From Lachnospiraceae bacterium (GTDB lineage Bacteria > Bacillota > Clostridia > Lachnospirales > Lachnospiraceae), in the NCBI GenBank assembly GCA_030536685.1, contig JAUNPP010000002.1:1-64000 (forward strand): a stretch of DNA of 64,000 nt, given 5' to 3'. A model generated the notes under the pieces. The model ran no database searches. It was not told where the DNA came from and saw only the letters and a list, made by a program, of their open reading frames with translations. The position numbers and the translations under genes are program-made. Below are positions 4,654 through 26,099 of this stretch, in pieces; position 1 is the first letter of the stretch; every line of letters begins with the position of its first letter.

Positions 4654-4674
4654 AACAATATAGGAGGACTACAG

Positions 4675-7359: not shown

Positions 7360-8682
7360 ATGAAAATTACAGAAGAAGAGAAAAAACAGCACCCACAATA
7401 CAGAGAGTATGTGGAACGATATGAATCTGCTTTGACAGGTCTTGAAGCCGGACTCCGGGGCGCTGGGGATCCGGCTCTAATTGTCGAAAAATGTCTAAAC
7501 ATGGCTCGTTCGTTTTACGATGCTGACAGTGCCGCTTTGGTCGAAACCAATCTGGAACTGGGTTATGGCGTCTGCATCATGGACGATTCCATTGACGGAC
7601 TTCCTAACTTTAAAGGAAAGATCATTAACATCACACCGGAAGAAACACCTTTTTTATATGCACGTGTCATGAGAAATGAAGTCTTTGAGATTGATGACCT
7701 GGAAAAATTAAAAGAAGTCTCTCCGGCTGAGGCTTTCCTGTTAAACAAAATGGATACTCATATTCTGGCAGTTGCTCCGTATTACAAACGTTCTTCCGGC
7801 TACCTTTATATCCGAAATCCCAAACGATTCGTAGGCTTGTACGGGATGCTGCAGGCTCTTTCCTATATCTTTGCTGCAGAGAGAAATGAGTTTCAACTGA
7901 TGGACAGCCTGAATATCGCCGTCAGCTCCAAAGGCTGCCGGTCTAACAAAGATGTTTTCATAAAAGTATTTGGTGGATTATCCATCACTACCAAGTTTGG
8001 TACACTCTCAGAAAGTGAAATCACTTCATCCCTTGCCATTCGTTTAGTTGCTTATCTTCTGCTTAATGACACCAGAAAAGTGTCCCAGCGCGAACTGACA
8101 GAAGCCCTGTGGCCGGATGCAGAAGTTGATTCGCCTGCCAAGCAGGTGAGAAACGTTGTCCACCGCACCAGAAATATTTTAAATCCTATTTTCCCTGACA
8201 GTCTTGTTGTGAATGACAAGATGGGAAATTATTATATCAACCCCAATGTAAACATTGTAACCGATGCCAGTGTGTTTGAAAGCTACATACGGAATGGTCA
8301 GCGTCCTTCCGCAACACAGAAAGAGAAAATCCACTACCTTAAACAGGCTGTGGAAATATATCAGCATGAATTTCTCCCGAACATGACCGGTGATTCCTGG
8401 CTGGACAATCAACGGACTTTTTACCATCTGACCTACCTGCAGGCAGTGATCGCACTCCTTCCTCTTTTGTACAAAGAAGAAGCCTATTCCGATATGTATG
8501 CGCTGTCCAGTGCGGCGCTTTTATATGAGCCGGAAAATGGGGATATCCTGTTCTGGCATATCCGGGCAATGATTGAACTTGGGGGTCTTGAAATTGCGCA
8601 GCGCAATCTCACGCAGCATAGTCAAAGCCTCAATGAAGACCAGAAAGATATTTTATCCGGTATTTTAAACACGCTCCATTAA
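7360..8682 (+). CDS. SARP/BTAD-like transcriptional regulator
   Basis: This 440-residue protein has three parts. Residues about 1-190 look like a GAF-type sensor fold. Residues about 200-310 are an OmpR-type winged helix (KVFGGLSITTKFGTLSES, then LTEALWPDAEVDSPAKQVRNVVHRTR). Residues about 320-440 are a helical BTAD-like region (YLKQAVEIYQHEFLPNMTGDSW). That order resembles the SARP/AfsR activators known best in actinomycetes. The start follows GAGGAGGAAAGAAGA. It heads the plus-strand half of the element and is a candidate activator of the recombinase operon; neither target nor ligand is visible. Confidence 0.72.
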   Translation: MKITEEEKKQHPQYREYVERYESALTGLEAGLRGAGDPALIVEKCLNMARSFYDADSAALVETNLELGYGVCIMDDSIDGLPNFKGKIINITPEETPFLYARVMRNEVFEIDDLEKLKEVSPAEAFLLNKMDTHILAVAPYYKRSSGYLYIRNPKRFVGLYGMLQALSYIFAAERNEFQLMDSLNIAVSSKGCRSNKDVFIKVFGGLSITTKFGTLSESEITSSLAIRLVAYLLLNDTRKVSQRELTEALWPDAEVDSPAKQVRNVVHRTRNILNPIFPDSLVVNDKMGNYYINPNVNIVTDASVFESYIRNGQRPSATQKEKIHYLKQAVEIYQHEFLPNMTGDSWLDNQRTFYHLTYLQAVIALLPLLYKEEAYSDMYALSSAALLYEPENGDILFWHIRAMIELGGLEIAQRNLTQHSQSLNEDQKDILSGILNTLH

Positions 8683-8799: not shown

Positions 8800-9399
8800 A
8801 TGCGAGTAACAACAAAGGCTATGCAGTATATTGACATGCAGATTCAGAACTGTGAACTGGATAAAAAGCACCTGTTCCAACAGACCAAGTCACTCCTGTC
8901 CCTTTACCGAAGTGTTGTATGGGCGGTAAAAGGAAGAGCTGTACATCTTAAGAATCGAATTTCAGGAACATATGGGATGCAGTTAAACACTGCGCTCCTG
9001 TTTTTATCCGATTTTGCACCGACAGAAACAAGAGTTGATTTTGAAATGCAAGTATCCAGTCTTTTCAAGTCCCGCTGGCTGATTGAGCTGATCGATATTG
9101 CCTCTGCATATGTACGGGAATACCCCATCTATGGAACCCTTTATGCCGACCTCCTCCGGCTCCGGTTCATGGATGAGATCCCAAGAAATGACGCTTCTGT
9201 CTGCGAAGCATTGGGACTGGAACGCAGCACGTACTACCAGAGAAAAAAAGAAGCAATCCTTCTTCTGGGAATATCCTTATGGGAATATGTTCTTCCCATC
9301 ACGATACAGACCTACCATAGAGTCTTAAAATTAGATGTTACGGAAGAAATCTTTTTCCAGAAGGTTGCAAAAGAGAATCAACTGCATTACCGTTTGTAA
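8800..9399 (+). CDS. Putative HTH regulator, family not recognised
   Basis: This is a 199-residue soluble, mostly helical protein. Residues about 138-165 (NDASVCEALGLERSTYYQRK) read like the helix-turn-helix of sigma region 4 or of ArpU-type phage late regulators. The rest gives no family I can name. The start follows AAGGAAGTG by about 9 bases. A leader with repeated TGTAAC precedes it, and two strong terminators separate it from the next gene. Its place between regulators suggests control of element genes, which is inference only. Confidence 0.65.
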   Translation: MRVTTKAMQYIDMQIQNCELDKKHLFQQTKSLLSLYRSVVWAVKGRAVHLKNRISGTYGMQLNTALLFLSDFAPTETRVDFEMQVSSLFKSRWLIELIDIASAYVREYPIYGTLYADLLRLRFMDEIPRNDASVCEALGLERSTYYQRKKEAILLLGISLWEYVLPITIQTYHRVLKLDVTEEIFFQKVAKENQLHYRL

Positions 9400-9607: not shown

Positions 9608-9643
9608 GCCAGGAAACGATTCCTTTGTTTCCTGGCTTTTTTT
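9608..9643 (+). terminator. Rho-independent terminator 2, possible attenuator
   Basis: A perfect 10-bp stem (GCCAGGAAAC/GTTTCCTGGC) is followed by seven T residues. It ends only 23 bases before the next start codon, so it may act as an attenuator for that gene and what follows. Confidence 0.85.
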
Positions 9644-9666
9644 GTGCAGCAGACAGGAGGCATACC

Positions 9667-10542
9667 ATGCATAAGGACAAGGAAACAAAAAACCAGGGAC
9701 AGCTCCCGCTTCTGATCCATAAAACAAAATATTTGATAGATCCGGAAACAGCAGAGCTTCTGAAAAAAGGAATCGTCCCGGAACCACTGCTAAAGCAGAT
9801 CACCCAGACGCAGGGAGATGAGTTCTGCTTTGAATTTCGCCGTAAGATACGCCTGATCAAACGCATCTGTGATCAGATCGATGCAGGAGAACAACCGGAT
9901 TCAATCCGTCCCTTAGTGGAAAGCGGGGAAGTCCCTGCTGATATTCTATATAAGATTTGCCACCATAAGCTTCTCGGAAAATCAGAACGTCTTTTGAAAG
10001 CCGGACTGCTGACATCCGATATCGTAGAAGTTGTACGAAAACACTTGCTGACAAAAGAAATCATTCCGGCACTCTCCCATGCTTTTCTCATGGATATGGC
10101 CAGATATCTGTATGAGCATAAGGAAATCAATCTCGCAACTTTAAAAGGAGCAGAAAACGGAACGATTGATCCTGTCTACATCCAGATCATCCGGCGGCAC
10201 TACCGGCACATGACCCATATGGAGGAAATTCAGGATAAACACTCTGCCTTTAAAACAGACGGAGTGACAGAACCTGCCGCTGAAGATAAAGGTCTGGACA
10301 GCAGGCTTCTGCAGGAGAGTAATCTTTCAGCACTTAAAGAAGCGATGTACTGGTTAAGCGCCGAAGAGACGCACCTTATTTGCCGCATCTATATGGATGA
10401 GATTCCAATCACCCGGATAGCTTTGGAATATGGAGTTGCCGAAAGCACGATCCGTTACCGCCGGGACCGTATTTTAAAAAAATTACGCTTTATTTTTGAA
10501 AATGTCCTTCACTGTGAAAAAGTAAATTTATTTGAATCATGA
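9667..10542 (+). CDS. Regulator with C-terminal sigma region-4-like HTH
   Basis: This protein has 291 residues from MHKDKETK, a start set by ACAGGAGG seven bases upstream. The last 60 residues (LSAEETHLICRIYMDEIP, then ITRIALEYGVAESTIRYRRDRIL) form a sigma-70 region-4-type HTH that would contact DNA. The first 220 are charged and helical and match no family I know; sigma region 2 is not evident, so it is unlikely to be a complete sigma factor. It is preceded by two back-to-back terminators and followed by a small conserved gene and the recombinase operon. Confidence 0.7.
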   Translation: MHKDKETKNQGQLPLLIHKTKYLIDPETAELLKKGIVPEPLLKQITQTQGDEFCFEFRRKIRLIKRICDQIDAGEQPDSIRPLVESGEVPADILYKICHHKLLGKSERLLKAGLLTSDIVEVVRKHLLTKEIIPALSHAFLMDMARYLYEHKEINLATLKGAENGTIDPVYIQIIRRHYRHMTHMEEIQDKHSAFKTDGVTEPAAEDKGLDSRLLQESNLSALKEAMYWLSAEETHLICRIYMDEIPITRIALEYGVAESTIRYRRDRILKKLRFIFENVLHCEKVNLFES

Positions 10543-10565: not shown

Positions 10566-10817
10566 ATGAAACCAATCACACCATTGTCAAAATCCGAACG
10601 GGACAAGCTGGTAGATATTTCTACAGTGGAAATTGACCGTTCCCTGCCGCCAGAGGAACGGCTGGCAAATTACCTGGAACAGATCAGGAATCCTTACTGC
10701 TATCTCTGCAATGGCATTGTTGTACATATTGCCTACGCTGATACAGAACAGACCATCGAAGATAAACTGGAACACTTTATCCGGCACAGGCAGGATGCAG
10801 AATATAAAAAAATATAG
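10566..10817 (+). CDS. Small conserved mobile-element protein (DUF6870-like)
   Basis: This is an 83-residue soluble protein with LVDISTVEIDRSLPPEERLANYLEQIRNPYCY, then CNGIVVHIAYADTEQTIEDKLEHF, here quoted in parts. It resembles small proteins that I recall next to recombinases in Firmicutes conjugative elements, listed as DUF6870. Two cysteines (YCYLC) could bind metal. The start lies 23 bases after the upstream regulator's stop, with AGGAGATG before it. Function is unknown. Confidence 0.6.
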   Translation: MKPITPLSKSERDKLVDISTVEIDRSLPPEERLANYLEQIRNPYCYLCNGIVVHIAYADTEQTIEDKLEHFIRHRQDAEYKKI

Positions 10818-10915
10818 AAGCCAAAATCCAACACCAAAAACGCAAAACCCAAACTATACAATAAAATTTTTCTATGCTATCATTTGACTAAGGGTAAATG
10901 AATAAGAATCTTTTG

Positions 10916-10967
10916 AAGCCTTTGGTCTTTTGATGGCACCACTATGTTGTCAGGAGGCCAGAGGCTT
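10916..10967 (+). promoter_or_regulatory. Leader hairpin covering the ribosome site of the first recombinase
   Basis: Twelve bases at 10916-10927 (AAGCCTTTGGTC) pair with 10956-10967 (GGCCAGAGGCTT) with two G-U pairs. The right arm overlaps the end of the AGGAGG at 10952-10957 and stops one base before the ATG at 10969. Folding would limit translation of the coupled seven-gene operon. Confidence 0.5.
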
Positions 10968-10968
10968 T

Positions 10969-12681
10969 ATGTATTTATCAGAACAATCAAAAGAATCTAT
11001 GGACAAAGAATACCTGTGCGCCTCGTATGTTCGTTTATCACAGGATGATGGAGACAAAGAGGAAAGCAACAGCATCATCAATCAAAAAACACTGATACGG
11101 GATTATATCAAGAACCACTCCGATCTCACACTGATAGAGGAATATGCAGATGATGGTTATTCCGGAGTAAATTTTGAAAGACCGGACTTTCAACGGATGA
11201 TGAACGATGTTAAGGCAAAAAAGATTGACTGTATCGTTGTCAAAGACCTCTCCCGTTTCGGTCGAAATTATATTGAGGTCGGAAGATACCTGCAACAGGT
11301 TTTCCCCTTTATGGGAATCCGTTTCATTGCCATCAATGATAGTGTTGACAGTGGCAAAAAACAGACGGATGCAGAACAGTTCGTACTGCCATTTAAGAAC
11401 CTGTTCAATGACAGCTATTGTAAAGATATTTCCATCAAAGTACGTTCCCAGCTTGCGATCAAGCGTAAAAACGGAGATTTTGTCGGGAGCTTTGCCTGTT
11501 ATGGTTATCTAAAGAATCCGGCTGACCATAACCAGCTCATGATCGATGAAGAGGTTGCCGATATCATCCGCTCCATCTTTCTCTGGAAAATCATGGGACT
11601 CTCCGCTGATCGGATTGCTGAGAAGCTCAATTCGCAGGGCATCCCCTGTCCTATGGAATATAAAAGAAGCCTTGGATTGAAAGTCTCTACGAACTTCCGA
11701 ACCAACGGTACCGCCAAATGGTCACACATGACGGTTCTTCGCATCTTAAAAAATGATATCTATATCGGAAATATGACACAGGGGAAACAGACTACGCCGA
11801 ACTATAAAGTCAAACGGCTGATTGATAAACCGGAGGAAGAATGGGATCGTGTGGAAGGTACACATGAAGCAATCATATCCGAAGATGTCTTTGAGACCGT
11901 ACAGGCGCTCATGCTGCAGGACACCCGTATTTCTCCATGGGAAACAAAAGTTTATCTTTTTTCCGGATATTTATTCTGCGGTGATTGCAAGATGAGCATG
12001 TCCCGCCGTACAAGAAAGAATAAAAGCAGTACCCGCTCTTACTATTTCTGCTCCGGGTACAAACGTAAAAACGGCTGCACCTCTCACAATATCAGTGAGG
12101 AGCGGCTCTATCATGCGACACTCTCGGCAATCCAGCAGCAATGCCGGATGATAACGGATATAGAGCGTGTCCTTCGTTATGCAAAAGACCTCCCGGATGA
12201 CCCGAACAGTCTGAAACGCTATGACATCCAACTGGCAAAATTGGATGAAGAAATTGATAAAAATCAGACCATGAAACTGCGGTTGATTGAAAACCTGAAT
12301 GACGGCATTCTTTCCAGCCAGGAATACCTGGATCTTGTAAAGATATACGATACCCGCATTCTGGAGGGAAGAAAAGCCAAACAGGTAGTAGCTGCGGAAC
12401 GTGCCGGTCTTCAGGATCTTCCACTTGAATCGGACTGGCTGACAGCATTTAAAAAATATCAGGAGATCACAGCCCTTGACCGGATTGTTCTGGCTGAACT
12501 GGTGGAACGGATTGAGGTGTATGCAGACAAAGAAATCGTTATCCGTTTTAAATTTTCTGATCAGATCAAAAGAGTACAGGAATATCTGGCTGAGCGGCAT
12601 CTGTTACCGGAGGCTTGTCCAGTTCAGCCGGATATAAAGGAGACACCATGGCAAGAAAAAGCAGAATTGCTGCGCAGTTAA
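10969..12681 (+). CDS. Large serine recombinase 1 (type X)
   Basis: This 570-residue large serine recombinase cuts and rejoins DNA through a serine nucleophile. The catalytic domain is intact: YVRLS (Arg22, Ser24), then VKDLSRFGRNY. A recombinase domain (GYLKNPADHNQLMIDEEVAD, near residue 190), a zinc ribbon (FCGDCKMSM...YFCSGYKRKNGC, near residues 340-375) and a coiled-coil tail follow. I start it at MYLSEQSKES because AGGAGG and a leader hairpin sit just upstream. It shares the ESNSIxNQ motif with recombinases 3 and 7 but has its own inter-motif sequence, so I class it apart. The next gene overlaps it by 34 bases. Confidence 0.93.
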   Translation: MYLSEQSKESMDKEYLCASYVRLSQDDGDKEESNSIINQKTLIRDYIKNHSDLTLIEEYADDGYSGVNFERPDFQRMMNDVKAKKIDCIVVKDLSRFGRNYIEVGRYLQQVFPFMGIRFIAINDSVDSGKKQTDAEQFVLPFKNLFNDSYCKDISIKVRSQLAIKRKNGDFVGSFACYGYLKNPADHNQLMIDEEVADIIRSIFLWKIMGLSADRIAEKLNSQGIPCPMEYKRSLGLKVSTNFRTNGTAKWSHMTVLRILKNDIYIGNMTQGKQTTPNYKVKRLIDKPEEEWDRVEGTHEAIISEDVFETVQALMLQDTRISPWETKVYLFSGYLFCGDCKMSMSRRTRKNKSSTRSYYFCSGYKRKNGCTSHNISEERLYHATLSAIQQQCRMITDIERVLRYAKDLPDDPNSLKRYDIQLAKLDEEIDKNQTMKLRLIENLNDGILSSQEYLDLVKIYDTRILEGRKAKQVVAAERAGLQDLPLESDWLTAFKKYQEITALDRIVLAELVERIEVYADKEIVIRFKFSDQIKRVQEYLAERHLLPEACPVQPDIKETPWQEKAELLRS

Positions 12682-14372
12682 GTCTGTCCGGAAATGCTTC
12701 TGTCACCCCGCCTGAACCAGGACCAGCAAAACTAAAAACAGGGATTTATGCACGGTTATCCATCAAAGACTTAGGGATTGAAGACGGTGACACAATGGAA
12801 ACACAGATTGCCCTGCTCCGGGACTATGTAACCCAGCAGGAAGACATGGAATTAAGAGAAATCTATGTTGATAACGGATGGTCTGGAACGAATTTTCAAA
12901 GACCGGAATTTAACCATCTGCTGGAAGATGTCAAAGAAGGAAAAATCAACTGCATCGTTGTCAAAGATTTATCCCGCTTTGGCAGAAACTATCTTGAAGC
13001 CGGTTACTATCTGCAGAATGTGTTTCCTTCTTACGGAGTACGCTTTATCGCTATCTATGACAGTTATGACAGCCAGACTTCTGACCCTGATTCTCTGATG
13101 GTCGTTATGAAGAATATCGTGAATGATTATTACAGTAAGGATATCTCAAGAAAAATATCCGCCACGATTGATCTGAAACGGTCACAGGGGCCTCTTTACA
13201 TGGGGTCTCCGCCATACGGCTATAAAATGAATCGTTCCGAACCCAGGCGTTACCTGAAAGATAAGAAGGCGGCAGCTTATGTGCACCTCATCTTCCACTG
13301 GGCATTAGAAGGTTTGTCCCCGTACAGGATTGCCTGCAATCTGAATGATCTGCAGGTTCCTTCCCCGCAGGCACACTATTACCAGAATCACGCAAACAGG
13401 AAATCCGGGAAATCATCTGCAGGAAATACCTGGATTGCAACCACTATTTCCGGTATTCTCTCAAACCCTGTTTATACTGGTAATTACTATTGCAATAAAA
13501 GTTACTTTCGAAAATATGACCCAGGTAATGCAGGAAATATTCCGGAAGAAGAATGGATCTGCTATCCCAATGTCCATGAAGCCTATATCAGCACCGAAGA
13601 TTTTGAGAAATTAAAAAAGAAACGGGAGGATGAAGAACAGCTCCGCCAGGATGCCAGAAAGAAGCACAGACTCCTCCCCTCCTCCCTGAATCTTTTCAAA
13701 GAACTTGTTTACTGTGGAGAATGTGGAAGAAAACTTCTTTTTCAGATCAACAGGGAGAATTTTAAATTCAGTACCTTTCATTGCACCGGTAAAGCATCCA
13801 GGATGTTAAGCGGTCATCCAAGGCTCTCCATTACCTATGCTGCAATAGAGAGTATTGTACTTTATAACCTGCAGACGCAGTTCCGGCTGGCTATTGAAGC
13901 AGATTCTTTCCTGAAGCGGTTATCAATGGAAGATGCCCGTAAGAGATTAAAGTCTCGAAGGCAGGCAGAACTTCAGGTACTGCATTCAAAACTGGCAGCT
14001 ATTGTATGTAAAAAGCAAAAAGCATTTGAGGATATGACAACCGGTCTTTTAGAACCGGCAATCTATAAAATGCAGATAGAGAAGCTGAATCAGGAAACTA
14101 TGTGGCTGGAAGAAGATCAAAAAAATGCACAGAAACGTCTGGAAGAAGTTGATACCTACTTTACTCCGGATAATGAATGGCTTCGGGCTTTCCTGGCAGC
14201 AAACATCTCAGAGGAACTGAATACACCTGCTGTTCGGATTCTCATCAAACGGATTGATATATGGAATGACCGCCAGATATGCATCACCTTTCAATTTGCT
14301 GACTGGATGGAAAAGCTCAATTCCTGTATCGCCGAATGGAAACTATTAGAAATGGAGGATTCAAATGAATAA
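12648..14372 (+). CDS. Large serine recombinase 2 (type A)
   Basis: This recombinase has 574 residues from MARKSR, with ATAAAGGAG just before the ATG inside the previous gene. Catalytic residues are present (YARLS with Ser38; VKDLSRFGRNYLEAGYY). The recombinase domain begins at SPPYGYKMN. The zinc ribbon (YCGECGRKL...FHCTGK) has three clear cysteines and ends differently from its neighbours. The tail is coiled coil. It is a close paralogue of recombinase 6: both begin MARKSR, place the serine at residue 38 and share KINCIVVKDLSRFGRNY. It overlaps the next gene by 8 bases. Confidence 0.92.
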   Translation: MARKSRIAAQLSLSGNASVTPPEPGPAKLKTGIYARLSIKDLGIEDGDTMETQIALLRDYVTQQEDMELREIYVDNGWSGTNFQRPEFNHLLEDVKEGKINCIVVKDLSRFGRNYLEAGYYLQNVFPSYGVRFIAIYDSYDSQTSDPDSLMVVMKNIVNDYYSKDISRKISATIDLKRSQGPLYMGSPPYGYKMNRSEPRRYLKDKKAAAYVHLIFHWALEGLSPYRIACNLNDLQVPSPQAHYYQNHANRKSGKSSAGNTWIATTISGILSNPVYTGNYYCNKSYFRKYDPGNAGNIPEEEWICYPNVHEAYISTEDFEKLKKKREDEEQLRQDARKKHRLLPSSLNLFKELVYCGECGRKLLFQINRENFKFSTFHCTGKASRMLSGHPRLSITYAAIESIVLYNLQTQFRLAIEADSFLKRLSMEDARKRLKSRRQAELQVLHSKLAAIVCKKQKAFEDMTTGLLEPAIYKMQIEKLNQETMWLEEDQKNAQKRLEEVDTYFTPDNEWLRAFLAANISEELNTPAVRILIKRIDIWNDRQICITFQFADWMEKLNSCIAEWKLLEMEDSNE

Positions 14373-15999
14373 TAACCTTGCCTGTTATATCAGGCTTTCC
14401 CTTGCGGATGGCGATCTGGGAGCCGGCAAGGATGAAAGCAACAGTATCAAAAACCAGAGAGAGCTTCTCCTGAATTATATCAGGAGTCATCCAGAGTTTC
14501 AGGGATGGAACATTCATGAATTTGTAGATGATGGCTATACCGGAACAAATGATGACCGTCCGAATTTCCAGCGGATGATTGAGCTGGCAAAAGACGGACA
14601 GCTCCAATGTATCATCGTCAAAGATTTATCCCGTTTTGCAAGAAATTATGTGCTGTGCGGTGATTATCTGGAACAGATTTTCCCATTCCTCGGTGTACGT
14701 TTTATCGCAGTCAATGACCGTTATGACAGTGCCAAAACCACCAGCGTCGATGACAATATGAGTATGGTGCTGAAATCTGTCCTGAACGCTTATTACAGTA
14801 AGGATATTTCACGCAAAATATTTTCTTCTTTTACCCAGAGGATGAAAAAAGGAATTTATCTTGGCAATACACCATACGGATACCTTCCGGATCACGAACA
14901 TCTTCGGTATGCCATTGATCCGGAGGCGTCACAAGTCGTCCGTAAGATCTTTAACCTGGCATTATCCGGAAAGAGTAAACTGCAGATTGCCGCAGCCTTA
15001 AATTCAGAAGGCATACTTCCACCCGGAGAATACAACCGTTTAAATGGAAAGATTCACAAAAATACCCGTGGCATTGCCGCATCCCCTATCTGGGAACCGA
15101 ATAAGATTATCTCTATTTTAAGAAATCAGGCTTATATGGGTGATCGTATCATGCGGAAACAAGTCCCTGTGATTCCCGGTTCAAAAATCCGGAGAAAAGC
15201 AAATGCGTCGGAACAGATTATTCACAGAGATGCCCATGAGGCGATCGTGACCCGGAAGGAATTTGAACGTGTGCAGGAACTGTTTCCTTACCGCCCCAAT
15301 ACAAAGCGCAGTTCAACCCTTGAATATACCCTGAAAGGCGTTGTGCGCTGCGGTACCTGCCGCCGGGCAATGGCACGTTCCCAGAGCAATAAGCATTATT
15401 CCTGTCCACATGCCCGGATGATCGATTCACCCTGCCCGAAAAAGAATTATGAAGTTTCTGAAATTGAAGCGATAATCTTTGAATCACTAAAACCGATGCT
15501 TACCATGGCAGTCGCTGCCGATAACCGCAGGAATAAGCGAAAGCAGTCTGCCGACTGGCTGACACAATGCCAAAAGGAAATCGGTACTGCGGAATTTACA
15601 GAAAAACGTATACAGCAGAAGAAACTGGATGCTTACGAGGACTATTCCAACCAGCGTATTTCCCTCAAAGAATACCAGAAACGAAAAGATTCCCTGAACC
15701 AGCAGGCTTCGGAAAATCAGAAAAAACTGGAAACCTTGAAAGAACAGGAACTTGCTTTTACAAGCGGATTGATTCCACATGAAATTCAGGCTGTCACAGA
15801 TTCTTCCCGAAAATATCTGCACAGCAGCTCACTCACCCGTGATATGGTCACAACCTTTGTCGATAGTATTTATGTCTATGAAGACCACTATGAAATCGTA
15901 TGGAAGTTCCGTGATGTATGGAAACAACTGGAAGAACGTGAAAATACCCCATCAACTCATTCATTACAAGAAAGGATGAACCCAAATGACACGCAATAG
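14365..15999 (+). CDS. Large serine recombinase 3 (type B)
   Basis: This is a 544-residue recombinase with a very short N-terminus (CYIRLS, Ser12). It has KDESNSIKNQ, then IIVKDLSRFARNYVLCGDYLEQIFP, given here in part. The catalytic set is complete, the recombinase domain starts at NTPYGYLPD, and a zinc ribbon (RCGTCRRAMA...YSCPH) and coiled coil follow. It pairs with recombinase 7, which has the same Ser12 position, the same RFAR variant and a similar tail. Its stop overlaps the start of the catalytic-domain-less recombinase 4 by 14 bases. Confidence 0.92.
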   Translation: MNNNLACYIRLSLADGDLGAGKDESNSIKNQRELLLNYIRSHPEFQGWNIHEFVDDGYTGTNDDRPNFQRMIELAKDGQLQCIIVKDLSRFARNYVLCGDYLEQIFPFLGVRFIAVNDRYDSAKTTSVDDNMSMVLKSVLNAYYSKDISRKIFSSFTQRMKKGIYLGNTPYGYLPDHEHLRYAIDPEASQVVRKIFNLALSGKSKLQIAAALNSEGILPPGEYNRLNGKIHKNTRGIAASPIWEPNKIISILRNQAYMGDRIMRKQVPVIPGSKIRRKANASEQIIHRDAHEAIVTRKEFERVQELFPYRPNTKRSSTLEYTLKGVVRCGTCRRAMARSQSNKHYSCPHARMIDSPCPKKNYEVSEIEAIIFESLKPMLTMAVAADNRRNKRKQSADWLTQCQKEIGTAEFTEKRIQQKKLDAYEDYSNQRISLKEYQKRKDSLNQQASENQKKLETLKEQELAFTSGLIPHEIQAVTDSSRKYLHSSSLTRDMVTTFVDSIYVYEDHYEIVWKFRDVWKQLEERENTPSTHSLQERMNPNDTQ

Positions 16000-17242
16000 A
16001 ACATACCCCCTGCCATCGAATGGCGAAAAAACTGCAAGATGGATTCCATATGGTTATCTGTATGATCCAGATGCGCCTGCTTTGATTGCAATCGATCCTG
16101 AAGCATCCAATACCGTCCGATATATTTTTGAGGAATATTTAAAAGGCATCTCGCTTTCTGAAATCTGCAGGATGCTGACAGAGAAAGGCGTTCCCACCCC
16201 TTCGGACCGAAGGGCACAGCTCGGTGCTGCTCCTGCTGAAAAATCCAACACATATTGGAAGGCTACTGCTCTAAATCAAATGTTATTCCATCCTGTATAT
16301 GCGGGAGATTGGATTTTGGAAGGAAGAGTCTGGGACTGCTGTTATTACTATAGCGGTATCCCATATCCGAATGGGATTACAGCGCCTGTCATCGAAAAAG
16401 ACCACCATGAAGCACTGGTGCCAAGAGATTATCTGGTAAAAGCCGCTCAGATGTTCCTTGAACAGCGGAAAGAAAGGAATACCATCCAGCAGAAGCCGTT
16501 TACGGATACGCCAGAGCTATCTCCTTTTTCCATCCTAAACCTTTTGCGCTGTGGAATATGCGGACGATTTCTTACTCCCGCCGAAATTTCCCTTCAAAAT
16601 GGAAAAGGGTTTACAGCATATTTCTGTTCCAGCATCAACCAGAAGAAACCGGGAGACTGCAGTAATTATGTGTACCGCCTGGATACGCTACTCTCACTTG
16701 TTCACGAAATACTCTCTGAAGAACGAAAAAATGCCCTTCGCTTCAGCCAGACTTCTTCCAAAAGGTCACAGGACAAAACCTACACGGTACTTGAAGCGGA
16801 ATTTCAGGAGCAGATTGATCAAACGATAGATGAAGTACGAAGCCTGATAGAAGAACAAAATAAACTGGAACGAAGCTATAAAACACACGGTATCTCTCAG
16901 GAAGAATATGACAGGCTTTCCGCTGATCTGGCAAAACGGATTTCACACGGCGAGCATAAAGTCATGGTTGCCTTAACAAAAATCCGTGATTTCCGAAAAT
17001 TATGCGGCGAAAAAAATGCCTGGGTATCCTTGTTTGCAAATCTTCCGGAAGATTTTACAGATAGCAGTATCGAATACAAGAGATATATCCAGAAAATCAA
17101 TGTTTTCCCTGACCAGCCGCCTGTGATCTTTCTGAAAAGAATGGATGCGAAAAAACAGCTCATGGAAACATTGAACCTTCCCTATAACGACCCGGAAACA
17201 GATACTTTTGACGATATAAATAAAGCCACGGAGGAAAATTAA
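15986..17242 (+). CDS. Recombinase 4 (type C): DNA-binding part only, no catalytic domain
   Basis: This 418-residue protein begins almost directly at the recombinase domain (WIPYGYLYDPDAPALIAIDPEA, quoted in part) and lacks the roughly 145-residue resolvase domain, so it cannot cut DNA. The rest is complete: recombinase domain, zinc ribbon (LRCGICGRFL...YFCSS...GDC), long coiled coil and the tail INVFPDQPPVI. It is not an obvious accident: the ATG has AAAGGA nine bases upstream, the frame is open for 1.25 kb, and it overlaps the previous gene. It is homologous to recombinase 5. A role as DNA-binding partner of the active recombinases is inferred. Confidence 0.88.
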   Translation: MTRNRTYPLPSNGEKTARWIPYGYLYDPDAPALIAIDPEASNTVRYIFEEYLKGISLSEICRMLTEKGVPTPSDRRAQLGAAPAEKSNTYWKATALNQMLFHPVYAGDWILEGRVWDCCYYYSGIPYPNGITAPVIEKDHHEALVPRDYLVKAAQMFLEQRKERNTIQQKPFTDTPELSPFSILNLLRCGICGRFLTPAEISLQNGKGFTAYFCSSINQKKPGDCSNYVYRLDTLLSLVHEILSEERKNALRFSQTSSKRSQDKTYTVLEAEFQEQIDQTIDEVRSLIEEQNKLERSYKTHGISQEEYDRLSADLAKRISHGEHKVMVALTKIRDFRKLCGEKNAWVSLFANLPEDFTDSSIEYKRYIQKINVFPDQPPVIFLKRMDAKKQLMETLNLPYNDPETDTFDDINKATEEN

Positions 17243-18931
17243 ATGGAACCCGAAAATAACACAAAATGCTATCATGCAGCCCTTTATGCAAGAAGAAAAT
17301 TTACGGATACAATCACCAAAGATGAACCGGATCCTACAGCAGCATCACAGATTAAAGAAATGAAAAATTATCTGCAGGATTACCCGGAGATAAAAGTGGA
17401 CGGTATTTACATGGACAACCATAAAATCAAACAGGAAAGTCCACGCCCTGAATTTTACCGTCTGGCAAAGGATTTAAAAAATGGTCTGTATAACTGCCTT
17501 GTCATGACCAGTCTCGACCTTTTTGCCAAAGATCATATGGAAACCAAATACTATCTGCTTAACCTGTTTGCAGTTATGGGAATCCGGATACTGTCCATTC
17601 AGGATAATTATGACAGCCTGTATTCAGAAAAAGCTGCCGGCTCTCATGACCGCTTAGAGGAACTTGTATGCCAGATGGATGCTCTCAGCCGTTCCCGGAT
17701 TCTTTCAAGAAGCTCTCTGCAAAAGAAGAATGACACATTCCTGGAATTTACTTTTACGCCTTTTGGTTACCTTTATAATCCGGATATCCCTTCCAATCTG
17801 GAAATCGACGAAGAAACCGTGGATGCTGTCCGCATGATATTCAAGGAATACCTTTCCGGAACTAATATGAATCAAATTGCGCAAAAGCTGACGGATATGA
17901 GAATACCCAGCCCCTCCCTGCGGAAGGAACAGCTCGGAATGGAATACCGGCATCCCTCTTCCAAAGATTACTGGACATCCGGCGGCGTTCATGCGATCCT
18001 GAAAAACCCACTATATACCGGTGATCTGGTCATTGGCAAACAGCGTTCGGCTCAGTATGTGTTCCGGGATTACAAACGGCATCCGGATCTGGATGGAAAC
18101 GTCATTCCCAACCATCACGTAGCGATCATATCACATGCCGATTTTGAACGGGCCAGATTGATGATGGATATTCTGCATCGAAAGCGCCAGGAAATCATAG
18201 CCAAACGTCCGCAGCCTGCTCTCCCGCCGACACCTTTTGTCAATTCGGTTTATTGCGGCATCTGCCATCGTTCCATGTATCATGTACGCTATAATGCCAC
18301 AAGCAGGAATCCATATTCTATCTATGTCTGTTCCAGTCATCGTCAGAAACTGGAAAATGCCTGCCCGCTCCACCATTTCAGAGTTGATGAAATCATCCCT
18401 GCAGTAAAGGACTACATTATGGAAGAACACAGACTGGCACTTACGATCATTGCGCAAATGCAGGATGGGGAAAACAGTGACTTATATCAGAAAATTGATT
18501 CTCACTTTCAGCAAAGGATTGCAAAAGTCATGGAAAAGGTACAGCAAAATGTACTTGCCCTGACTGCTCTTCCAGATGAAGAGGAAGAAAAACGGGAAAA
18601 GCTGAATACAGAATCCACGCTTCTACGATCAGAACTTGTCGAGATCCTGGATGAAAAGAAAAAGTTCAGTAAAGAATTTACACTGAAAAACAAGTGGCTG
18701 CAGACATATGGCAATATACCGGAAAATTTTGAACTGACAAGGCAATATGGACGTACTCTGGTCGAACGGATTGAGCTGACCCCGGATCAGCCGCTCGTCT
18801 ACACGCCAAAGCATCTCAAAGAGAAAGAATTGCTGCTCCACTATATCACATTGAGCAAGGAGGTTCCTGATGGCACGAAAAAGCAGAGAACAGATACAGT
18901 ATGCGAAAGCGACCGGACAGACATTTCTTGA
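17243..18931 (+). CDS. Recombinase 5 (type C): full length, catalytic residues lost
   Basis: This 562-residue protein has the full large-serine-recombinase layout, but its active site is gone. The Y-A-R-L-S motif reads YARRK, putting Lys19 in place of the serine. The DLSRFGR motif reads SLDLFAK (residues 90-96), replacing both arginines with Leu93 and Lys96. The recombinase domain (TPFGYLYNPD), the zinc ribbon (YCGICHRSM...YVCSSHRQK...ACP) and the coiled coil are intact. The start directly follows the stop of gene 4 (TAAATG). The next gene overlaps it by 62 bases. Intact DNA-binding modules argue for a retained non-catalytic role. Confidence 0.92.
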   Translation: MEPENNTKCYHAALYARRKFTDTITKDEPDPTAASQIKEMKNYLQDYPEIKVDGIYMDNHKIKQESPRPEFYRLAKDLKNGLYNCLVMTSLDLFAKDHMETKYYLLNLFAVMGIRILSIQDNYDSLYSEKAAGSHDRLEELVCQMDALSRSRILSRSSLQKKNDTFLEFTFTPFGYLYNPDIPSNLEIDEETVDAVRMIFKEYLSGTNMNQIAQKLTDMRIPSPSLRKEQLGMEYRHPSSKDYWTSGGVHAILKNPLYTGDLVIGKQRSAQYVFRDYKRHPDLDGNVIPNHHVAIISHADFERARLMMDILHRKRQEIIAKRPQPALPPTPFVNSVYCGICHRSMYHVRYNATSRNPYSIYVCSSHRQKLENACPLHHFRVDEIIPAVKDYIMEEHRLALTIIAQMQDGENSDLYQKIDSHFQQRIAKVMEKVQQNVLALTALPDEEEEKREKLNTESTLLRSELVEILDEKKKFSKEFTLKNKWLQTYGNIPENFELTRQYGRTLVERIELTPDQPLVYTPKHLKEKELLLHYITLSKEVPDGTKKQRTDTVCESDRTDIS

Positions 18932-20600
18932 TCCGGCTTCAGTCAAACCTGCAGTACGGACAGCAATCTATGCCCGTCTCTCATTATATGATATGAACTG
19001 GTCATGCAGGGACAGTATGCAAAACCAGATACATTTGCTGGAATCCTATATGGCTGAACACCCTGAATTAAATCTCACAGACAGGTACATTGACAATGGC
19101 TGGAGCGGTATGGATTTTAACCGCCCAGCCTTTAAACGGCTTTTAACAGACATCCATTCCGGAAAAATCAATTGTATTGTAGTTAAAGATCTCTCCCGTT
19201 TCGGCAGAAACTATGTAGAAACCGGATACTATCTTGAAAATGTATTTCCTTCTCTTGGCATCCGGTTCATTGCAATCAACGATCATTTTGACAACCAGAC
19301 GGCGAGACCGGATGATCTTGGAATCATCCTGAAAAATATCCTGAATGAATTTTTCAGCCGTGACCTTTCACGCCGATACTGCGCCAGTATAGATATCCGC
19401 CGCCAAAAAGGTGTCTTCCGTCACGGTACCCCATATGGCTATATGCATGATCCTGAAAGACCAGATTATCTTACGTTTGACCCTTCTGTATCCCACTACG
19501 TTCATCTTATCTTTCAATGGGCACTGGAAGGTACCCCTACAAGTAAAATCGCACATCGGCTCCGGCAGATGAATGTACCAACTAAGGAACGAATGGAATA
19601 TTTGAGAAATAAAGAAAAAACCAGGCATAAGGGAAGTACCCGCTGGGATGTAAATAGTGTCCGGGAAATGCTGATGAACCCGGTTTACGCAGGAGATTTT
19701 GTATACGGCAAAATACGCAAACGAAAATGTGACCCTTATAACAACCGTGTGATTCCGAAAGAAGAATGGACGGTTATTTCTGATGCTTTCCCCGCCTATA
19801 TCAGCCATGAACAATTTGACCAGATTCAGGAGCGCATGGAAAAAAACACGCAAACATTCTATCAGCAGATAGAAAACAAAAAATCCATCCATGAAGAAGT
19901 ACCGAATTATTTCAAGGATCTGCTTTACTGCGCCATCTGTGGGAAAAAAGTACACTCTTCCCTGGATGCCCGCGAAAAATCACAATCTTATCTGGTTTAT
20001 TTCTGTTTTCAGTATGGAAATGCCAGACATGAACCGCATCCGAGAGTCAATATACATAAAAAACTTCTGGATACCATCGTCCTGGATGAAATACAAAATC
20101 AATTTCGGTTAGCAGAACAGTTTTCTCAATGGCTTCATTCTCCTACCTGTCAGGCTCAGGCAAAGCAATGGCTTCGAAAGCAACAGCAGCTACTTGAATC
20201 ATTAAATCAAGAAGCCGCACAAAATAAATCTGAACTGGCACAGACTTTTGAAAATTTTGCTTCAGCATGTATTACAGAAGAGATGTTTCTCCAACGGAAA
20301 ACACAACTGAAACAGCAGGAAAAGGCGCTTACCGCATCACTGGAAAAACAGGCAAAGCACATGCAGGAAATCCAGCGGGCACTTTCCAAAGCCAATCCCT
20401 GGCTGAATCTGCTCAATCAATTTGCCTACCCGCATTGCTTAACGGAGTCGCTTACCCATACGCTCATCGACAGGATCATTCTGGGACTTGGAGGCGAATT
20501 GCAGATTATCTTCCGGGAGGAGCATTGGCACCATCTGTTTACCCAATATTGTGAGGAAATTCAACATAGTGACATTCAAAAGGAGGCAAATTCTGAATGA
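18870..20600 (+). CDS. Large serine recombinase 6 (type A)
   Basis: This is a 576-residue recombinase starting MARKSREQIQ, with GGAGG six bases upstream, deep inside gene 5. It has the complete active site (YARLS with Ser38; VKDLSRFGRNYVETGYY), recombinase domain (TPYGYMHDPERPDYLTFDPS), zinc ribbon (YCAICGKKV...YFCFQYG) and a glutamine-rich coiled coil. It is the second type A member, the paralogue of recombinase 2. ATGA overlap joins it to recombinase 7. Confidence 0.93.
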   Translation: MARKSREQIQYAKATGQTFLDPASVKPAVRTAIYARLSLYDMNWSCRDSMQNQIHLLESYMAEHPELNLTDRYIDNGWSGMDFNRPAFKRLLTDIHSGKINCIVVKDLSRFGRNYVETGYYLENVFPSLGIRFIAINDHFDNQTARPDDLGIILKNILNEFFSRDLSRRYCASIDIRRQKGVFRHGTPYGYMHDPERPDYLTFDPSVSHYVHLIFQWALEGTPTSKIAHRLRQMNVPTKERMEYLRNKEKTRHKGSTRWDVNSVREMLMNPVYAGDFVYGKIRKRKCDPYNNRVIPKEEWTVISDAFPAYISHEQFDQIQERMEKNTQTFYQQIENKKSIHEEVPNYFKDLLYCAICGKKVHSSLDAREKSQSYLVYFCFQYGNARHEPHPRVNIHKKLLDTIVLDEIQNQFRLAEQFSQWLHSPTCQAQAKQWLRKQQQLLESLNQEAAQNKSELAQTFENFASACITEEMFLQRKTQLKQQEKALTASLEKQAKHMQEIQRALSKANPWLNLLNQFAYPHCLTESLTHTLIDRIILGLGGELQIIFREEHWHHLFTQYCEEIQHSDIQKEANSE

Positions 20601-22198
20601 AGAAAATAATCGCTGCTTATCTTCGGCTTTCTAACGCTGATCATGATCTGTCCGAAAAGGACGAAAGCAACAGTATCACCAATCAAAGACAATTGATAAA
20701 ATATCACATCCAGACCCATGAAGACCTGAAATCCTACCAGTATGAAGAATTTGTAGATGATGGTTACAGCGGAATGAATACAAACCGCCCTTCTTTCCAG
20801 AATATGCTTCGTCTGATCAAAAAGGATAAAATACACTGCGTCATCGTCAAGGATCTCTCCCGTTTTGCAAGAGACTATCTCGTTCTTGGAGATTATGTGG
20901 AACAGATCTTTCCTCTGCTCGGTGTGCGTTTTATTGCTATAAACGACGAATATGACAGCCGTATCAGTGTCACTGCAATGGAAACCGTAAGTATCTCCAT
21001 CAAATCTCTTGTCTATGATTACTACAGCCGTGACCTCGCCCGAAAAATGCGTACCGGTATTATGGAACGTTACAAACACGGAACTATCATCCACGCAGCT
21101 CCCTACGGCTATGTAACCAATTATAAAAAGCATCGCTTTGAGATTGATGAAGAAGCGGCTGCAAATGTCAAACTGATATTCAAACTGACCATTGAGGGAC
21201 AATCCCCCAGCGATATCGCCCGGTATCTGAATAATTCCGGTGTTCCTACACCGGCAGTGTACAACCGACTCCATCCGGAACTTAAAAAAACAGGATACAA
21301 AATATGTAAAAATCCAGTTTGGACAAACAGCAGTATCCGCACTATCATCAGTAATAGAACTTATACCGGTGTGCGTATCGGTCATAAAACCTCCACTGAA
21401 AACTCTCCGCATGTTTCAGAAAAAGTAGATCCTGCGGACTGGTTCATCTACGAGAATGCTCATACGCCTATCATAAGTGAGGAAGATTACGAACTTGCAC
21501 TTTCCAAATTGAAACGGTTTACTCCCCGGGATCCCAACCGCACGAAACAATATGTCAACAACTGTGTCCTTCAAACAAAACTTCGCTGCGGTCATTGCGG
21601 TCGTGCTGTTGAATACCGCACTTCCGGCAGGCTTGCCATTTGTCCACAGGCCCGATTTCTGCCAAATGCCGATTCATCTGCAACCCATCCGACACTGAAC
21701 ATTACCGTATATGTGTATGAGTCGCTAATGCCTATACTAAAGGCGCTTCTTATAGAAAAAGAACGCTTACAAAATGAAATCAATGAAGGAAAAGCAATCC
21801 TCAAAAGATGCAAGGAAACCCTCTCAAGAATCGAAGAAAACAAACGCCAGCTTTCCGAAAAAAAGCGTATCCTGTATGAGGCTTATGTCACAAAAGAAAT
21901 GAATCGGGAAACATACTTACAGAAAAAAGCGGAACTTGATAAACAGGAACAGGATTTAAAACAGGAATACCAGCAGCAAAAGCAACAGGAAATGTATTAT
22001 ACAACCCTTGCTATTCCTGACGAAATCAATATGCTTTCTGCCTCTGCCAGTTCTGATATTGATAAAGAATTTCTAACAAAAGATATGGTAAAAACCTATG
22101 TCCGTACAGTCTACATTGATGGCCCGGAAGATTATAGAATCGAATGGAATTATGATAATCTGTTTCGTCAGCTCGCCGGGAATGAAAATGTGGACTGA
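20597..22198 (+). CDS. Large serine recombinase 7 (type B)
   Basis: This 533-residue recombinase is the last of the array. It has YLRLS (Ser12), KDESNSITNQ, VKDLSRFARDY, the recombinase domain (APYGYVTNYKKHRFEIDEEA), a zinc ribbon (RCGHCGRAVEY...AICPQ) and a long charged coiled coil. All catalytic residues are present. It is the paralogue of recombinase 3. It starts in an ATGA overlap with gene 6. The second copy of the relaxase palindrome begins 14 bases after its stop. Confidence 0.93.
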   Translation: MKKIIAAYLRLSNADHDLSEKDESNSITNQRQLIKYHIQTHEDLKSYQYEEFVDDGYSGMNTNRPSFQNMLRLIKKDKIHCVIVKDLSRFARDYLVLGDYVEQIFPLLGVRFIAINDEYDSRISVTAMETVSISIKSLVYDYYSRDLARKMRTGIMERYKHGTIIHAAPYGYVTNYKKHRFEIDEEAAANVKLIFKLTIEGQSPSDIARYLNNSGVPTPAVYNRLHPELKKTGYKICKNPVWTNSSIRTIISNRTYTGVRIGHKTSTENSPHVSEKVDPADWFIYENAHTPIISEEDYELALSKLKRFTPRDPNRTKQYVNNCVLQTKLRCGHCGRAVEYRTSGRLAICPQARFLPNADSSATHPTLNITVYVYESLMPILKALLIEKERLQNEINEGKAILKRCKETLSRIEENKRQLSEKKRILYEAYVTKEMNRETYLQKKAELDKQEQDLKQEYQQQKQQEMYYTTLAIPDEINMLSASASSDIDKEFLTKDMVKTYVRTVYIDGPEDYRIEWNYDNLFRQLAGNENVD

Positions 22199-22396: not shown

Positions 22397-23284
22397 ATGA
22401 GCTTTCTTTTGAAAAAAATGATACAAAAACAACGTGCCGATTTCGCCGCTCTTTCCGAAAAGCGAGATGCTACACTATTATTCCCGGATGATGTCACTGT
22501 GATAGAAAATATCTCCTATCGCCCTGATGCAGCTACTGCACACCGCATGGACGTGTTTCGCCCCAGTGCAACAGAACGTACACTTCCCATTATTATCAAT
22601 GTACATGGTGGCGGATTGATGATGGGTACAAAAGAGTTTAATCGTTTCTTCTGTGCTCAGCTATGTAAACTTGGATTTGTTGTCTTCAGTATTGAATATC
22701 GTTTGATTCCGGAAGTAACCGTTTTTGACCAGTTAGGAGATATTACTGCAGCAATGGATTTCGTAAAATATCACAGCCTGATCTATGGCGGTGATCCGCT
22801 GCATATCTATATGGTTGGTGACAGCGCCGGCGCATATTTGATCACTTACGCAGTGGCAATCAGTAATAACCCTGTACTGGCTAATGCCTCTGGCGTCACT
22901 CCTTCTGGTCTTCACGTCAATGCGCTCGGACTGATCAGCGGCATGTTTTATACAAGACGAATGGATGAAATCGGTCTGTTTCTTCCCAAATTGCTATACG
23001 GAAAAAGCTACCGACATAGCCCATTCTTTCCCTACACCAATCCGGAACATCCTGAAATCATAAAACACCTGCCGCCTTGCTTTCTCGTAACAAGCCATGA
23101 TGATCACCTTCATCATTACACAGCCGATTTCGCCGCTGCGCTTAAACGCATCGACAAACGTCATAGGCTGATAGATTATGATAAAGATAATCGCCTGACT
23201 CATGCATTCAGCGTGTTTGAACCAACCATGGATAAGAGTCTGGAAGTGCTCGAAAAAATGACCGGTTTTCTCCTGCGAAATTAA
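22397..23284 (+). CDS. Alpha/beta hydrolase (esterase/lipase family)
   Basis: This is a 295-residue serine hydrolase of the hormone-sensitive-lipase/acetyl-esterase type. It has the oxyanion loop NVHGGGLMMG, the nucleophile elbow GDSAGAYL, and late Asp (SHDDHLHHY) and His (LTHAFSVF) candidates for the catalytic triad. No signal peptide is visible, so it should be cytosolic. The start is set by CGGAGG seven bases upstream. It sits between the recombinase array and the defence operon and ends at a strong terminator. It may be cargo; the substrate is unknown. Confidence 0.85.
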   Translation: MSFLLKKMIQKQRADFAALSEKRDATLLFPDDVTVIENISYRPDAATAHRMDVFRPSATERTLPIIINVHGGGLMMGTKEFNRFFCAQLCKLGFVVFSIEYRLIPEVTVFDQLGDITAAMDFVKYHSLIYGGDPLHIYMVGDSAGAYLITYAVAISNNPVLANASGVTPSGLHVNALGLISGMFYTRRMDEIGLFLPKLLYGKSYRHSPFFPYTNPEHPEIIKHLPPCFLVTSHDDHLHHYTADFAAALKRIDKRHRLIDYDKDNRLTHAFSVFEPTMDKSLEVLEKMTGFLLRN

Positions 23285-23423: not shown

Positions 23424-24809
23424 TTAAATATATAATTTCTGATCACCAATCGGAACATTAACCATAGTCATTGCTACACACTCACCATTTTTGATAATAT
23501 AGCATTCTACAAAATGTGGACCTCCGAATTCTGATTCCTCTCTTTTCGACTTACCACACTTTTTCTCAATTTGGCCTCGAATTTGATTTTTCTTTTCTGC
23601 TATTGATCCAACATTTCGAACTTTCCACCAGACTTCATAAGGATAAGGAACATCTGTTTCAGCTTCAAAATCTATTGTTAATCCGTGTGGCATCAACTTA
23701 TGAAACCGTGGAAATTTTTCCAGGAATTTATATAACGGCTGCTGATGAATTCCATTTGCCTGTACTTTACATGATACCCACACATTATAGCAGTCATTTA
23801 TCGGTACCATATCTTCAATAAATTCCTCTGTGTCACTATACTGTGACTTTTTCAAAGAAGCTGCCTCAAACATACCTTTTTCTTTATCTGACAAATCAGA
23901 CCAATAATCATGATTAAAAAATTTATTCCATGCTTCGAGTGCCTGTTTATAAGTACATTTTTCATCTAAAAGCACATTCAATGAATCTATTTTGCTACTT
24001 AATCTTAAGAGCCAATTATCCATTTTATCATAATGATTCTGTGCTGTAAGAAGTGATAACTCTGTATCTACCGGATTAGAAACTTCAGTACTTTCTTCAA
24101 GACGATTTTTCACTGCAACCATTGTATTGTAGAATATTTCGTCAATTCTTTCATGTTCTGAATCAAATACTTCATCACATATCACTGACTGAATTAGTCC
24201 TCCTGGCATATTAACCCATCCAGCTCTCGATTTACAGAACATCTTTGACAAACGTACTACTTTTCTTAGCCCAGTCCCTTTTGATTTTACTTCATCCAAA
24301 AACCACTTGGTAATTGCTGCCGGATTACGTGTTTTCCATTCCGTACCTGCATGTTCGTAAGTATACTCCGTTTTACCTTCTTCTCTAAATCTCCTGTAAA
24401 CAGCAAAATCCACATGATAACCATCTGCATACTGAACTCTTACACAATTCGTTTTGCATTCAGGAGACGTATTAAATTGTCCACACTTCTTTTCGAGTGC
24501 TTTGCACACAACTCTTCTTGCTTGTAACGGACTCAAATCTCCCAAATTGCTCTTATCAAAAACAATTGCTACGTCAATATCATAATCGTTATTATCATTT
24601 TGTACAACGGTAGACATTGCCATACTCCCTTGAACACGCTTTTCAGCTATAGAATAGTTTGTTTTTTTATCCTCATTGTAAAGTTTCAGACCTTCTTCCA
24701 GACGTTTTACGTTTAAATTTTTCTTTTCACGCAAATTTTGTTGTTTGTCATTGCTTAAAACAACATAGTCTTTATAGAATCGTTCAAATTCTTTTGAAGC
24801 ATCGTACAT
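23424..24809 (-). CDS. CBASS CD-NTase (cGAS/DncV-like nucleotidyltransferase) with AGS-C-like domain
   Basis: This 461-residue enzyme should make a cyclic oligonucleotide alarm signal on phage infection. The polymerase-beta-type active site is complete: GS at residues 61-62, the metal-binding DID at 77-79 and the third aspartate at 134 (HVDFAV). The C-terminal 80 residues (YEVWWKVRNVGSIAEKK, GGPHFVECYIIKNGECVA) match the AGS-C sensor domain often linked to such enzymes. The start is 10 bases after the SAVED gene's stop, with AAAGGGGTG upstream. No Cap2 or Cap3 gene is present, so this is a minimal type I layout. The nucleotide product cannot be read from sequence. Confidence 0.87.
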   Translation of the reverse strand: MYDASKEFERFYKDYVVLSNDKQQNLREKKNLNVKRLEEGLKLYNEDKKTNYSIAEKRVQGSMAMSTVVQNDNNDYDIDVAIVFDKSNLGDLSPLQARRVVCKALEKKCGQFNTSPECKTNCVRVQYADGYHVDFAVYRRFREEGKTEYTYEHAGTEWKTRNPAAITKWFLDEVKSKGTGLRKVVRLSKMFCKSRAGWVNMPGGLIQSVICDEVFDSEHERIDEIFYNTMVAVKNRLEESTEVSNPVDTELSLLTAQNHYDKMDNWLLRLSSKIDSLNVLLDEKCTYKQALEAWNKFFNHDYWSDLSDKEKGMFEAASLKKSQYSDTEEFIEDMVPINDCYNVWVSCKVQANGIHQQPLYKFLEKFPRFHKLMPHGLTIDFEAETDVPYPYEVWWKVRNVGSIAEKKNQIRGQIEKKCGKSKREESEFGGPHFVECYIIKNGECVAMTMVNVPIGDQKLYI

Positions 24810-25919: not shown

Positions 25920-25952
25920 ACTTTCATTTCTCCTCTCTAAATTTCTATTTTC

Positions 25953-26002
25953 GAGTGCTAACATCTGCGTTATTGTTAGCACTCCACTGTATCGAGTGCT
26001 GA
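25953..26002 (-). promoter_or_regulatory. CIRCE-type (HrcA) operator of the CBASS operon
   Basis: TTAGCACTC-N9-GAGTGCTGA at 25976-26002 matches the CIRCE consensus TTAGCACTC-N9-GAGTGCTAA at 17 of 18 positions with the exact 9-base spacer. A third perfect half site, GAGTGCTAA, lies at 25953-25961. The main element covers the expected transcription start, the classic CIRCE position. CIRCE is known as the HrcA repressor site of groESL and dnaK operons. Confidence 0.85.
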
Positions 26003-26006
26003 CAAT

Positions 26007-26035: not shown

Positions 26036-26099
26036 TCGAATTTTTACCATTTTTGTAACATAATATCCTATGTTTTTTTTGCGAATTCTATCACTGAAA

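Follow-up and report, generated by a model that had tools for sequence, protein, structure and literature searches.

In streptococci, comparative genomics has recognized triplets of serine integrases as the integration modules of integrative and conjugative elements (ICEs), which insert into several genes with repeats of 2-8 bp and whose integrases cluster by position (Ambroset et al. 2016, PMC4701971). In Streptococcus suis, a further report places the same triplet accessions at different insertion loci (PMC13089153). Here, we analysed a 64-kb stretch of Lachnospiraceae DNA (the window, i.e. the first 64 kb of the 99.9-kb contig JAUNPP010000002.1), in which seven consecutive recombinase-family genes form an array (10969-22198) on a putative mobilizable element. 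The window integrases resemble the streptococcal triplets in being co-oriented and in clustering by position, and the X-A-B arrangement of the first three genes is common in sampled relatives (81 loci). They differ in having seven members, with a second A-B pair and two conserved non-catalytic members, and in lying on a mobilizable backbone that also encodes BTAD and sigma-like regulators. Genes 1-3 may correspond to the ICE triplet positions E, M and I, a correspondence that extends beyond our tree, which held no streptococcal triplet. The X-A-B triplet being already known, the novelty apparent from the sequences is an expanded conserved module with two predicted non-catalytic members. In the literature covered, we found no serine recombinase array exceeding three members and no conserved dead member, a weak absence given that subscription papers and preprints were outside the scope, nor did we find an experimental test of how three triplet integrases divide the work.

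Single serine integrases, for which a separate factor sets the direction of the reaction, are widely used genome tools. The X, A, B, A2, B2 and C proteins of the window share the domain layout of the SPbeta and phiC31 integrases, with sequence and fold matches to the solved complexes of these integrases. However, SPbeta and phiC31 each combine one integrase with one small directionality factor, whereas the window encodes many paralogues, some of them catalytically dead. The cargo-bearing staphylococcal cassette chromosome (SCC), like the window, carries large serine recombinases side by side, at least two together. To our knowledge, no non-catalytic member of these ccr recombinases has been described.

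Catalytic state of the seven genes

The original prediction, made from the letters of the window, described seven large serine recombinase genes on one strand with successive overlaps of 34, 8, 14, 0, 62 and 4 bases, and both the orientation and the overlaps are borne out by the seven open reading frames (ORFs). A Shine-Dalgarno-like stretch lies upstream of each of them, and transcription of the seven genes as a single mRNA is plausible. We named them X, A, B, D, C, A2 and B2 in their order along the array (gene 4, earlier classed as C, being renamed D). The count of recombinases had to be lowered, since five of the seven are catalytically plausible. Six checked residues, whose catalytic roles are presumably those of the resolvase family, are complete in genes 1, 2, 3, 6 and 7. 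In gene 5 (C), lysine, leucine and lysine replace the nucleophile serine and the two arginines of the SRFGR motif, while gene 4 (D), which begins with the recombinase domain, lacks any match to the catalytic domain PF00239. The recombinase domain PF07508 is above cut-off in all seven genes, and the zinc ribbon PF13408 is above it in genes 1, 3, 4 and 5, below it in genes 2 and 6, and unmatched in gene 7.

The features by which the genes had been paired were all recovered: the MARKSR start and Ser38 of genes 2 and 6, the Ser12 and RFAR variant of genes 3 and 7, and the PDQP-V motif of genes 4 and 5. Protein identities within these pairs (34% for 2/6, 35% for 3/7 and 25% for 4/5) are at best barely above that of genes 1/3 (32%), and the best partner falls within the noted pair for genes 2, 6, 3, 7 and 4, with a small margin over other pairs. 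The pairing therefore rests on the tree, on which 2/6, 3/7 and 4/5 were each recovered.

Recurrence and history of the array

Grouping and co-occurrence of the recombinase types, proposed as a test in the original prediction, were found in the form of orthologue groups with a shared order in other contigs. The complete order X-A-B-D-C-A2-B2 recurs on the IMG/VR contig G276, with identities to the window of 67, 56, 58, 39, 51, 50 and 42%, together with an extra eighth copy that likewise lacks the nucleophile serine. Parts of it are found in two genomes of the family, i.e. B-D-C-A2-B2 (the order of genes 3-7) on a 6.9-kb contig of G370 and C-A2-B2 (genes 5-7) in G374, both contigs ending inside the array. 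A third genome, G175, carries a rearranged X-A-B-d-B-C-A array, in which d is a 251-aa piece made of the zinc ribbon and the C-terminal part. As the order recurs in unrelated contigs, it is attributable neither to chance nor to assembly; an artefact of repeated genes is also ruled out by paralogue pairs that are ~25-35% identical.

Gene 5 searched against plasmids and phages gave general relatives only, with best identities below 30% among the matches listed, and against genome contigs one generic relative and nothing closer. In viral contigs, no matches came from scans with gene 3 or with a C alignment, the scan with gene 1 retrieved G276, and the X alignment retrieved 80 loci, mostly triplets.

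The history of the array was examined on a tree of 74 proteins from 14 ordinary triplets, window-type arrays and two other dead members, with support given as SH-like approximate likelihood ratio (SH-aLRT) values from a quick search and with the root as drawn. X (99), B (99) and C/D (97) each form one group. The A2 proteins form a group of their own (100) within an A/A2 group (99), the B2 proteins likewise (98) within a B/B2 group (100), and grouping by position is also seen for D (98) and for three of the C (98). Genes 1-3 fall with the X and B positions of the 14 other triplets (99 and 99), whose A positions are spread over more than one group on the root as drawn. A smaller tree, obtained by the same method with fewer orthologues, left the pairings unchanged. 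With A/A2 and B/B2 as sister groups, the tree indicates that the A-B pair was duplicated within this lineage before the elements of the window, G276, G370 and G374 split. The second A and B of G175 are related more closely to A and B than they are to A2 and B2, and its array thus has a separate history. The duplicated cassette proposed originally thus holds for the A-B pair but not for X, which is single, nor for genes 4/5, which belong to a separate C/D group lying between the two A-B pairs.

Within the duplicated pairs, the catalytic domains (55% identity between A and A2, 52% between B and B2) are better preserved than the recombinase domains (34 and 29%) and the zinc domains (27 and 30%). 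This strong divergence of the DNA-binding domains would fit different target sites for A/A2 and B/B2, in line with the switchable specificities raised in the original prediction, but the same pattern is seen among ordinary triplet members from different elements. Together with the stability of the A2 and B2 orthologue groups and with the C-A2-B2 stretch at a contig edge of G374, where X-A-B is not seen, it could also point to two systems in one operon, with X-A-B integrating the element and C/D-A2-B2 performing a second reaction such as cargo exchange, use of a second target or inversion. We regard such a division as unlikely, given that the genes overlap as one unit and that X is single. Moreover, the G374 contig ends just before C, in a second A-like tail, and X may therefore be out of view.

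Among loci fetched by X- or C-like matches (window excluded), a biased and partly redundant sample in which 49 of 80 triplet loci remain after redundancy removal at 85%, triplets were the most frequent (81), followed by 17 single genes, 12 pairs, 7 arrays of four, 2 of five and 2 of seven. The six residues are complete in 240 of the 243 members of the 81 triplets, and one of the remaining three is cut at its start. At least one member without catalytic residues or domain occurs in 9 of the 11 arrays of at least four genes, a count weakened by two doubtful cases, since L164 resembles a triplet with a frameshift and L131 runs into a contig end. A second dead lineage, located between X and A, is found in L044 and L121 (30% mutual identity).

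Non-catalytic members and the proposed module

C is present as intact ORFs in five lineages (~546-562 aa, 30-52% protein identity) and D in three (413-449 aa, 37-41%). The six residues read RKQRLK, RKQRLK, RKQRSK, RKQLTK and RIQLQN in the five C orthologues, four of which share the serine-to-lysine change, and the catalytic domain is unmatched in D of the window, G276 and G370. The zinc-ribbon cysteines are invariant across the five C and the three D. Differences at codon positions 1/2/3 amount to 0.37/0.28/0.59 for C and 0.50/0.34/0.67 for D, and the dead domain of C compared with that of G276 gives a nonsynonymous divergence (dN) of ~0.36 for a synonymous divergence (dS) of ~2.0, dS being saturated in the other two pairs. 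The significant PDB matches of the C and D models, whose confidence is moderate (pLDDT 73.8 and 63.5, respectively), are serine integrases and recombinases; the C model matches whole serine integrases and the D model those same proteins. Because their ORFs stay open and selection looks purifying, C and D look like conserved parts rather than debris. The profile of conservation is also informative: in the catalytic groups, conservation peaks in the N-terminal domain (61-79%), whereas the domains of C are conserved alike (50, 50 and 48%), the N-terminal one no higher than the remainder. Such a profile fits a release from catalysis with fold and DNA binding still under selection.

As the order is conserved and the non-catalytic members are retained, we favour a multi-subunit recombinase, the retention of two members predicted not to cut suggesting a many-part recombination machine with helper parts. 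In our view, the array is probably an integration/excision module that has grown from a triplet and in which catalytic and non-catalytic recombinase-derived subunits would cooperate. From an initial X-A-B triplet, duplication of the A-B pair would have produced A2-B2, and two recombinase-derived subunits, D and C, would have been gained, with loss of catalysis and maintenance of the DNA-binding parts. The catalytic subunits X, A, B, A2 and B2 would form heteromers on the half-sites of the attachment (att) sites. C, with its catalytic-domain fold retained, could fill a subunit place without cutting, while D, consisting of the recombinase domain, zinc ribbon and coiled coil, may bind att DNA or the coiled coils of its partners. 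Their joint effect might be the choice of the pairing sites and of the reaction direction, which is the job of the directionality factor in single-integrase systems.

Several observations weigh against this proposal. The catalytic domain is less conserved in C (50%) than in A2 (68%) and B2 (61%), as would be expected once such a domain is freed. C-type proteins are rare: of 397 family genomes searched with three C sequences, four (own, G175, G370 and G374) had strong matches, with E 1e-150 or better, and at E 1e-100 C-type proteins were found in 2 of 392 genomes drawn from the order and 1 of 391 drawn from the class, the three draws overlapping. Neither attL nor the left end of the element (somewhere between 3944 and 4675) was found, and the role of the array in integration therefore rests on its position and family. 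Finally, the short D of G175 (251 aa) has no Pfam hit, and D may for that reason be disappearing from some lineages. The same shortened copy, together with the truncated or dead extra members of some four- or five-gene arrays (e.g. L035, L045 and L143), could even mean that a tandem duplication left C and D behind as decaying remnants, X-A-B (perhaps with A2-B2) working alone. This seems quite improbable to us in view of ORFs that are intact at 30-52% identity with a third-position excess and dN well below dS, and of the conserved array position, the invariant cysteines and the recurrent lysine in four of the five C.

Returning to the cooperative module, C or D may, by analogy, stand in for the directionality factor of single-integrase systems. 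A bolder version, which we advance tentatively and consider possible though doubtful, is that both are pseudo-recombinases, encoded within the integrase operon, that replace or supplement this small factor and determine att-site synapsis and its direction in a heteromer of up to seven different polypeptides; if true, the second dead lineage would show the repeated capture of such subunits. Conserved non-catalytic members (two of seven) would offer a natural dissection of cutting versus binding or steering subunits. The array also predicts heteromers and designates C, D and the upstream DUF6870 protein as candidates for the control of direction.

The element, its ends and upstream control candidates

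Relaxase and MobC, regulators, array, esterase, defence genes and right end together indicate that the array sits in an integrative mobilizable element of ~22 kb (Table 1). No conjugation genes (type IV secretion system) were seen in the element (4600-26700), where a single ORF of at least 100 aa, of 115 aa, is unassigned. The G175 array is flanked by the same backbone (MobC, BTAD, 199-aa, sigma-like and esterase proteins), and that of G276 is also accompanied by regulators and the esterase. In G276 (L066/L059), the sigma-like regulator lies on both sides of the eight-gene array, in two copies, and one further single recombinase is found on the opposite strand.

Table 1. Features of the array and of the surrounding element
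Feature	Position	Strand	Evidence and remarks
Small helix-turn-helix gene (XRE-like by eye), near left end of element	4675..4992	+	longer ORF form 4606-4992
Relaxase	5039..6625	-	PF03432 E 4.7e-15; first 39 aa 85% identical to G175 contig edge
MobC/NikA-like mobilization protein	6625..6990	-	PF21983, PF19514, PF05713; 72% identical in G175
BTAD-type transcriptional regulator	7360..8682	+	PF03704; 63% in G175, 67% in G276
199-aa conserved element protein	8800..9399	+	59% G175, 56% G276; ArpU-like TIGR01637 E 4.5e-4, below cut-off
Sigma-70 region-4-like protein	9625..10542	+	PF04545 E 3.2e-4, TIGR02937 E 4.3e-7, both below cut-off; 49% G175
DUF6870 protein, directly 5' of array	10566..10817	+	PF21757 E 4.1e-28
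Hairpin, 25-bp stem	10914..10969	+	contains gene 1 Shine-Dalgarno
Gene 1, X: catalytically plausible large serine recombinase, most conserved member	10969..12681	+	PF00239, PF07508, PF13408; RSQRRR
Gene 2, A: catalytically plausible large serine recombinase	12648..14372	+	domain, residue and tree evidence
Gene 3, B: catalytically plausible large serine recombinase	14365..15999	+	domain, residue and tree evidence
Gene 4, D: limited to recombinase domain, zinc ribbon and coiled coil	15986..17242	+	catalytic domain not matched
Gene 5, C: full-length large serine recombinase	17243..18931	+	catalytic Ser to Lys, two catalytic Arg gone
Gene 6, A2: catalytically plausible large serine recombinase, gene 2 paralogue	18870..20600	+	domain, residue and tree evidence
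Gene 7, B2: catalytically plausible large serine recombinase, gene 3 paralogue	20597..22198	+	domain, residue and tree evidence
Alpha/beta-hydrolase (esterase-like), kept 3' of array	22397..23284	+	PF07859/PF20434; 57% G175, 55% G276
CBASS CD-NTase, cargo	23424..24809	-	PF21654, PF18134; PADLOC cyclase E 2e-190
CBASS SAVED-TM effector, cargo	24819..26030	-	PF18145; PADLOC SAVED_TM E 1.2e-78
Conserved non-coding right-end region	26095..26390		73% to G175:C14; strong match in 2/200 genomes (own, G175)
Approximate right junction with truncated epsG	26690..26700		EpsG paralogue alignment ends; codon context

The cargo is a cyclic oligonucleotide-based antiphage signalling system (CBASS), which ties an unusual recombinase module to the spread of anti-phage defence. 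In G175, a SEC-C-type protein (named by eye) is found where the window has CBASS. Defence cargo and weak CcrB/CcrC model matches (e.g. 91.7 bits for gene 1 with CcrB) recall a system like that of the staphylococcal cassettes, with extra recombinases moving the cargo. Unlike ccrA, ccrB and ccrC, however, the window proteins score far under the NCBIfam cut-offs of 700-900 bits (best 91.7 versus 900, genes 1-5 being scored), and the element carries a relaxase and MobC, which makes this origin highly improbable.

On its right side, the element abuts an epsG gene without its last ~40 codons compared with the intact epsG at 2841-3944, and homology ends at ~26699. The right end of the G175 element also abuts epsG, after ~67 codons, so that both elements lie in exopolysaccharide loci. 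The missing C-terminal part of epsG was not found in 3945-4700, left of the element. The comparison with an empty site, by which the original prediction expected to locate attL and attR, did not succeed: searches with the flanks in 61 relatives returned the own genome and gene-level matches only, and no empty site was found. A 143-nt right-end sequence (26563-26705) has an 84% copy in the same genome (G000:C222:2898-3038, L189), the similarity ending at ~26705. That copy adjoins RloA/RloB-like genes (named by eye), and no recombinase was found on its 6.4-kb contig. A 25-nt palindrome occurs with one mismatch at 5701-5725, inside the relaxase gene, and at 22215-22239, just 3' of the array, for a chance expectation of zero; considered as att-like, it looks like a terminator. 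An Rfam scan returned two tRNAs only.

Two upstream features are candidates for the control of the recombinase module because both recur before first recombinases. The DUF6870 gene lies just 5' of the first recombinase in 74 of the 78 arrays of at least three genes with room to see it, in 7 of 12 pairs and in 2 of 15 singles. We found no paper naming DUF6870 in the literature covered, and its conserved position makes it a candidate regulator or directionality factor. A hairpin at the ribosome site reaches z < -2 in 18 of 22 X genes versus 6 of 43 A and 2 of 26 B, 22 of the 49 non-redundant first genes being evaluable and the shuffles being mononucleotide only. Covariation in three sequences showed no excess (94.7% paired versus 94.2% in shuffles; 35-52% in slid versions), and the support for the hairpin comes from its energy against shuffles and against other genes. 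Finally, in Vescimonas fastidiosa pMM35_01 (NZ_AP023416.1, L181), five annotated recombinase genes in a row lie after DUF6870, which makes this another longer array; its fourth gene, of only 396 nt, is perhaps split.

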